The notes beneath the pieces are model-generated. The model did not search any database, was not told the origin of the DNA, and was given only the letters and a program-made list of their open reading frames with translations. Below, one piece after another: positions 13,540 to 15,327 of a stretch of DNA of 64,000 nucleotides. Where the stretch lies: contig CAMCVH010000001.1 of NCBI GenBank assembly GCA_945881875.1, forward strand, positions 434,001-498,000, read 5' to 3'. Position 1 is the stretch's first letter. Each line of letters starts with the position of its first letter. Origin of the DNA: Polynucleobacter meluiroseus (GTDB taxonomy: Bacteria; Pseudomonadota; Gammaproteobacteria; Burkholderiales; Burkholderiaceae). The translations under genes and the position numbers were made by a program.

Positions 13540-14505
13540 ATGCGTAAAAAAATTGTTGTTCTAGATGATCTTGAAAATTCTTATAAAAAATTAGCTGATT
13601 GGTCTAAGGTAGAAGCCCAAGCGGATGTTCATATTTTTCAGGAACCACTTCATGGTGATGCTCTTTTAAAAGTGCTCAAAGATGCACAAGCCGTTGTTTT
13701 AATGAGGGATAGGACAACATTTAAAGAGGACGTCATCAAGCAACTCCCCTTGCTTAAATACCTTGTATTTACTGGCACACGCAATGCTGCACTTGATGTG
13801 GAGGCACTAAGACAGCGCCAAATCCCTATTAGCCACACTGGTTGGGGTCCTTCCAAGAACAGCACATCTGAGCTAACTTGGGCGCTAATACTTGGGTTAA
13901 AAAAACAGCTGATTAATCAAAACAATCTGATTAATCATCAACAGTGGCGCAATGAGCTCTCGTTGCTTCCTGTCTTACAAGGGCAAACCCTAGGTTTGAT
14001 CGGTCTTGGTGAAATTGGTCAGCGAGTCGCACAAGTTGCTGTAGCCTTTGGTATGAAAGTTATCACTTGGAGTCCTAATATGAGTTCAGCAAGAGCAGAA
14101 GCAATTGGTGCCCAGTCAGTGAGCTTAGATGAGCTACTTCAACAGTCAGATATTGTTTCATTACACATCATTGCAAGCTCAAGCACGAAGGGCATGATCA
14201 ACAAAGAAAAATTGGCACTCATGAAAAAAGATGCCATTCTTGTGAATACGTCACGCGCAGTGCTAGTCGATACCGCTGCACTCGTTGATAGTCTTAATCA
14301 GGGCTCTATTGGTGGAGCTGCTGTGGATGTGTTTGATATCGAGCCACTGCCGGCTGATCATCCTTTAAGAAAAACCCCAAACACCCTATTAACCCCACAC
14401 TTGGGATTTGTAGCAGAACCAGTATTTACGACATTTGCAAAAGATGTTGTTGAATGTCTAGAGGCATGGCTCAATGGTCAACCGACTATCCGTCCTCTGC
14501 CCTGA
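13540..14505 (+). CDS. D-2-hydroxyacid dehydrogenase family protein
   Basis: GQTLGLIGLGEIGQRVAQVAVAFGMKVITW; NTSRAVLVDTAALVDSL; TPHLGFV. Confidence 0.9.
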   Translation: MRKKIVVLDDLENSYKKLADWSKVEAQADVHIFQEPLHGDALLKVLKDAQAVVLMRDRTTFKEDVIKQLPLLKYLVFTGTRNAALDVEALRQRQIPISHTGWGPSKNSTSELTWALILGLKKQLINQNNLINHQQWRNELSLLPVLQGQTLGLIGLGEIGQRVAQVAVAFGMKVITWSPNMSSARAEAIGAQSVSLDELLQQSDIVSLHIIASSSTKGMINKEKLALMKKDAILVNTSRAVLVDTAALVDSLNQGSIGGAAVDVFDIEPLPADHPLRKTPNTLLTPHLGFVAEPVFTTFAKDVVECLEAWLNGQPTIRPLP

Positions 14506-14938
14506 TTGCGGTAATCCAAGAGGGGCGTTAGAAAAAACGTGTCCTTTTTGCGGCTCGACTGATTTACCCCCAGTTCCTAAAAAAGCTGCGGGTATTTACA
14601 CGCTCAACTTAGAAGTTGATTTGCCGACGGTAGATCAGGCTATCGAACAGTTTGACCGAGCCTTAAATGAGCTATCTGGTACGGCCATTAAGTTAATTAA
14701 GGTCATCCATGGATATGGGTCTCGAGGTAAAGGTGGTCGTATTAAAGAAGCCATACGCCAAGAGCTCATTTACCAAAGAAGAGGTCATGTCATCCATAGT
14801 TTTATAGCTGGAGAGGACTTAGAGCTAGGCAAGGAAGCCTATCAAGAGTTACTTAGGCAAAATCCAGTTGTTAAAAAGGTGTTAACTAGGGATATGTTCA
14901 GTAATCCCGGTATTACCCTGATCATCCTCAAAAAATGA
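14474..14938 (+). CDS. Zinc-ribbon plus Smr-domain protein
   Basis: N-terminal CPDCG..CPFCG, then LNLEVDLPTVDQAIEQFDRAL...KVIHGYGSRGKGGRIKEAIRQEL. Overlaps upstream gene by 32 nt. Confidence 0.75.
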   Translation: MVNRLSVLCPDCGNPRGALEKTCPFCGSTDLPPVPKKAAGIYTLNLEVDLPTVDQAIEQFDRALNELSGTAIKLIKVIHGYGSRGKGGRIKEAIRQELIYQRRGHVIHSFIAGEDLELGKEAYQELLRQNPVVKKVLTRDMFSNPGITLIILKK

Positions 14939-14970: not shown

Positions 14971-15093
14971 TCACTCTGAGCGGCTGCAAACCCACTCTTT
15001 ACGTTGCCATTCACCTGGTTTTTCAGCAAAAACCATCCAAATAACCAAACCTGAAATAGCTGACCAAATTGGGTTTAAAATCAATGTTTTCAT
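14971..15093 (-). CDS. 40-aa small membrane protein, candidate SOS-regulated peptide (MKTLILNPIWSAISGLVIWMVFAEKPGEWQRKEWVCSRSE)
   Basis: Manual reverse-strand translation; GGAG Shine-Dalgarno 8 nt from ATG; hydrophobic residues about 4-23; LexA-box promoter immediately upstream. Confidence 0.68.
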   Translation of the reverse strand: MKTLILNPIWSAISGLVIWMVFAEKPGEWQRKEWVCSRSE

Positions 15094-15160
15094 ATAAATC
15101 TCCTATTTATTAACTGATCATCACCTGTACAGCACCTGTATATATGGCTAAGACCATATA

Positions 15161-15176
15161 CTGTATAAATATACAG
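15161..15176 (-). promoter_or_regulatory. LexA (SOS) box CTGT-N8-ACAG overlapping a sigma70 -10 element
   Basis: Plus strand CTGTATAAATATACAG; minus strand has TTGACA (15190..15195), 16-nt spacer, TATATT (15168..15173). Confidence 0.82.
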
Positions 15177-15327
15177 TATTTTTAGGACTTGTCAACAAAA
15201 TCCATAAAAAATCCTTAAATAGGTCATTTCAGCTAAATTGGGCGATCGAATCAATCAGCCCGTCTTTTTAACCTCTCAATAGGTTTATCCTGTTGTCATT
15301 AAGAGTCGAACTCGGAGCAGGTTTTGG

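Follow-up and report, generated by a model that had tools for sequence, protein, structure and literature searches.

What does a gene of only 40 codons do under a near-perfect LexA operator in Polynucleobacter? Members of this genus, abundant in freshwater, have small genomes and an SOS regulon that strict box counts put at about four units. That one of the four is a conserved protein without a name makes it testable how division stops upon DNA damage in the absence of a recognisable SulA. In the window, the whole 64,000-nt stretch of Polynucleobacter meluiroseus DNA analysed here, the open reading frame runs on the minus strand from 15093 to 14971, stop included, with exactly the sequence proposed by the initial annotation (Table 1). 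The neighbouring Smr-domain gene (14474..14938) lies on the opposite strand, so no co-directional gene follows immediately downstream; the micropeptide is encoded by a stand-alone gene.

Table 1. Features of the micropeptide locus, in window coordinates.
Feature	Position	Strand	Basis
-35 hexamer TTGACA	15190..15195	(-)	TTGAC[A/T/C] and 16-nt spacer in 15/15 group A copies
LexA operator TACTGTATATTTATACAGTA, core CTGT-N8-ACAG at 15161-15176	15159..15178	(-)	identical to the umuDC 20-mer; 29/29 group A and B orthologues
-10 hexamer TATATT, within the LexA operator	15168..15173	(-)	promoter scoring; group A leader comparison
Shine-Dalgarno GGAG, 6 nt before ATG	15100..15103	(-)	present in 15/15 group A leaders
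Micropeptide gene, 40 codons, MKTLILNPIWSAISGLVIWMVFAEKPGEWQRKEWVCSRSE plus stop	14971..15093	(-)	direct read; homologues in 51/187 genus genomes; omega ~0.10
Hydrophobic helix, codons 9-22, IWSAISGLVIWMVF	15028..15069	(-)	AlphaFold2 helix 8-24 or 8-22, block pLDDT 86-89; hydropathy
Conserved tail, codons 23-40, AEKPGEWQRKEWVCSRSE	14974..15027	(-)	family alignment; E24, E33, W34 and C36 invariant

A profile search recovers convincing copies in 51 of 187 Polynucleobacter genomes, a count that leaves out two further weak matches, and the reading frame, on whose conservation the initial annotation had staked its proposal, is kept in the 51. An initial search of the genus returned 14 copies at 83–100% identity (the window's own included) and about 30 more distant ones, with close relatives matching at E = 1e-21 to 1e-24; loci taken from named records place the genus as Polynucleobacter, P. 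cosmopolitanus, P. rarus and P. kasalickyi among them. Variation among the 14 close copies is concentrated at third codon positions (dS ~0.78, dN ~0.094, omega ~0.10), and on this comparison the gene is under purifying selection. Outside the genus, 24 other Burkholderiaceae genera gave no copy, and a search of about 270 genera from the class turned up nothing beyond two marginal matches (E about 0.006–0.01). The peptide had been presented as uncatalogued, and it does lack a match to any known family in Pfam, NCBIfam, PHROGs, PADLOC and PDB sequences; fold comparison gave no match either, and papers on Polynucleobacter and LexA or the SOS response yielded nothing on the gene. Judged by sequence, this is a real, Polynucleobacter-specific gene of 31–40 residues.

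We grouped the genomes on a tree of MraZ plus RsmH (midpoint root, no outgroup). Group A holds 15 copies of 40 aa, including that of the window, and group B 14 copies of 35–36 aa, from larger genomes and at 31–49% identity to the window copy. Diverged as the two groups are, a common CoA-binding-protein-like gene is found close to the peptide in both. Group C, with 19 copies of mostly 31–32 aa, is paraphyletic to group D, the genomes without the peptide. One group B Polynucleobacter-like contig, CALPOM020000114.1 (L147), bears the record title Thermoflexus hugenholtzii, an apparent mislabelling. Toxin or mobile-element cargo was considered as an origin and rejected: neither phages nor viral contigs gave a match, and the gene has a common location in groups A and B. 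A plasmid search gave two weak matches only (E = 8), both within a ParA gene.

The near-consensus promoter and overlapping LexA box that had been described upstream of the frame both hold, with 11 of 12 promoter matches across a 16-nt spacer, the -10 hexamer inside the near-perfect operator (core CTGTATATTTATACAG, 15176..15161) and 67 nt between box and ATG, as given. The GGAG is present as well, spaced at 6 nt and not the 8 nt first assigned. Two other leader elements of the initial annotation were not conserved: the TATATGG..CCATATA hairpin belongs to the window copy only, and the CAGGTG repeats are found in just 3 of 15 group A copies. TTGAC-N16-TATATT is constant in 15/15 group A copies, over leader lengths of 41 to 79 nt. 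A short stem directly after the LexA box, close to where the transcript is predicted to begin, is seen again in many relatives, with an energy mostly no better than that of shuffles.

By itself, CTGT-N8-ACAG is common (1 in the window versus 1.02 expected; 11 in the 1.53-Mb genome). With about one expected per window, the case for the box therefore relies on conservation. An exact box sits on the promoter in 29/29 copies of groups A and B and umuDC in the same genome carries the identical 20-mer, which places the operator beyond chance; the LexA control claimed for this gene is thus strongly supported by comparison. In group B, a second box lies about 50–65 nt further upstream in 13 of 14 copies, the tandem boxes having the peptide on one side and an acyltransferase-like gene on the other (L147-L157, L208-L221).

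LexA itself is encoded in the genome (TIGR00498 match over cut-off, G000:C1:104291-104911) and matched in 148 of 151 genus genomes. The window genome has a box just upstream of the lexA start, another before recA and that of umuDC, whose UmuD is confirmed as Peptidase S24. Strict boxes in the examined group A and B genomes stand at recA, at umuDC or another polymerase gene, and at the micropeptide; others mark transposase-like or mobile elements and one unrelated site. No SulA scored above cut-off in the genome; the best candidate, interrupted by an internal stop, reached 13.7 bits. These alignments give good support for a LexA operator and a promoter that are both conserved, within a tiny SOS regulon, and we regard a real, new, LexA-controlled micropeptide family as nearly certain.

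Some boxes elsewhere in the genus have other settings. A strict box in G116 (L234) is common to two divergent genes, one of them DNA-polymerase-like (MKSVTQTTPTALRALYVDFNSYFASAEQQ...), at a place where relatives have umuDC. Identical LexA-like boxes are repeated before transposase-like genes in G084 (L095) and G881 (L240); these probably mark the ends of elements or SOS sites that are mobile, and we set them aside.

SOS control of the family is not universal, because no LexA box was found upstream of the 19 group C copies, or of three diverged ones outside the A–D assignment (G034, G084, G094). The group C leaders examined carry in its place a GCTCAT-N3-WTGAGC palindrome 50–77 nt upstream of the start (L136-L145, L223, L224; one base off in G075), which the three diverged copies also lack. 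The group C peptide would need another trigger; a search for a regulator of the palindrome in this group identified none. Another gene, whose product M(S)TIRQ(Y/Q)LVFLTGHR... is membrane-protein-like (L164, L107, L167, L259), has a LexA box, and in some group C genomes the same palindrome (GCTCATCCTATGAGC) also stands between that box and the gene. A 110-aa fragment of that protein had no Pfam match; we presume a resemblance to DUF4407.

In most Polynucleobacter that belong to neither group A nor group B, mraZ is preceded by a LexA box at a distance of about 235 nt; the start of mraZ was located with tblastn given divergent N-termini. The leader between box and gene is conserved (L097, L099, L102-L104, L108, L178-L188). 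The exact core is present in 6/6 group C genomes tested and in 4/6 of group D, where one further genome has one mismatch and another two. No such box was found in group A (0/11) or group B (0/7), the window genome among them. On the tree, the pattern fits a single change on the branch to groups C and D, and the alternation of mraZ box and LexA-controlled peptide therefore counts as one event. Comparison of these upstream regions suggests, short of proof, that peptide and mraZ box share one purpose. A possible history, which we offer tentatively, has the LexA-controlled family as the ancestral DNA-damage division checkpoint of Polynucleobacter, with LexA control later moving to the mraZ cluster in one lineage, where the peptide came under a different regulator in group C and was thereafter mostly lost in group D; the alternation would then show the evolutionary re-wiring of a checkpoint.

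The part of the peptide that stays constant is its tail. M1, F22, E24, E33, W34 and C36 are identical in all aligned copies, W19, G27 and E28 are nearly invariant, and the signature F-x-E..GE[W/F]..EW[V/I]C is retained at 31–65% identity between groups. AlphaFold2 models, of low confidence (mean pLDDT 69–70), place a helix at 8–22 or 8–24 and leave the tail uncertain. Library searches with the peptide returned no sequence or fold match to division inhibitors; identity with SulA was rejected, there being no SulA domain (PF03846) and no Pfam match at all.

A role as division inhibitor is plausible, and our best guess, to which we would give about an even chance, is a checkpoint protein like SidA of Caulobacter. 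We arrive at it from four points: no SulA above cut-off, a regulon of very few units, the alternation with the mraZ box and the example set by SidA. In the window's clade, LexA on the promoter would hold the gene off; upon DNA damage, cleavage of LexA under stimulation by RecA would free it, and lexA, recA and umuDC with it. The short N-terminal helix would attach the peptide to the inner membrane, leaving the tail to act on one specific protein partner. That partner would most likely be the division machinery, such that septation is delayed during DNA repair, as with SidA. All four steps of this scheme are ones that we infer: actual induction, membrane attachment, a protein partner, and a target in division.

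The partner could instead lie outside the divisome, the peptide being an SOS-induced small regulator of another envelope or repair target such as a membrane protease, transporter or respiratory complex. Modulation of membrane complexes is common among bacterial micropeptides that have a single hydrophobic helix, and the invariance of the E, W and C residues is suggestive of a specific interface. Yet the remaining SOS genes with strict boxes in the group A and B genomes examined all serve repair and mutagenesis, and in other groups LexA control is located at mraZ, a division-cluster gene. We consider this alternative rather unlikely.

The initial annotation had also proposed a membrane toxin, which after the model of TisB and DinQ would be induced by SOS, insert into the inner membrane, lower the membrane potential and bring on dormancy. 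TisB of E. coli is a tiny hydrophobic peptide regulated by LexA. A source on DinQ, also of E. coli, describes the same combination (PMC3567139). The micropeptide is likewise tiny, hydrophobic and under predicted LexA control, and in its window copy 15 residues form a hydrophobic stretch, marginal as a transmembrane segment, with a predicted helix. The relatives, however, shorten that stretch to about 10–12 residues and place K, D or E close to it, so that groups B and C carry a shorter and more charged version than the window copy, and a hydrophobic membrane helix is not conserved across the family. Summed hydrophobicity makes a membrane span no more than marginal in the window copy and disfavours one in groups B and C, and attachment to the membrane may therefore be peripheral. 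Conservation resides in the polar, aromatic tail and not in the helix; purifying selection on specific residues there points to a protein partner. A TisB-like pore or lytic peptide is unlikely because the tail is invariant while the hydrophobic stretch shrinks. A further apparent difference from TisB and DinQ is that an Rfam search of the region showed no known antisense RNA or other RNA family near the gene, although an antisense RNA outside Rfam may exist. On these sequence features a toxin is less likely than a SidA-like checkpoint, and we hold it improbable.

Least of all do we expect the LexA-controlled transcript to be a regulatory RNA or leader with an incidental frame: the short stem by the predicted start of the transcript is indeed shared by several relatives, but an omega of ~0.10 with variation at third codon positions, a frame that stays constant while leader length and sequence vary, a protein motif that outlasts divergence between groups, the lack of any Rfam family in the region and an Smr-domain gene facing the other way, which leaves nothing immediately downstream to lead, make this highly improbable.

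Several known systems bear on the SidA-like checkpoint. SulA of E. coli and YneA and SosA of Gram-positive bacteria share with the micropeptide the role sought for it, an SOS-induced block of division, with no homology found. SulA is a soluble FtsZ inhibitor, and YneA and SosA are larger than the Polynucleobacter protein. As to homology with SidA, DidA, SulA, YneA or SosA, the peptide had no match of any kind in the Pfam and NCBIfam libraries. LexA boxes upstream of mraZ have been reported in E. coli (PMC3265435), and for an mraZ site from a gut metagenome LexA binding was shown in vitro (PMC3998124). Most Polynucleobacter outside groups A and B resemble these by their box, whereas the window genome has no mraZ box and has the micropeptide instead. 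The nearest likeness is to SidA of Caulobacter crescentus, a 29-aa LexA-controlled inner-membrane inhibitor that acts on FtsW (PMC4211646). Both proteins are very small, LexA-controlled and at home in an aquatic host, and both consist of one short helix plus little else. Action on FtsW has been shown for SidA and would be conjecture for the micropeptide; the conserved polar tail, in turn, belongs to the Polynucleobacter protein.
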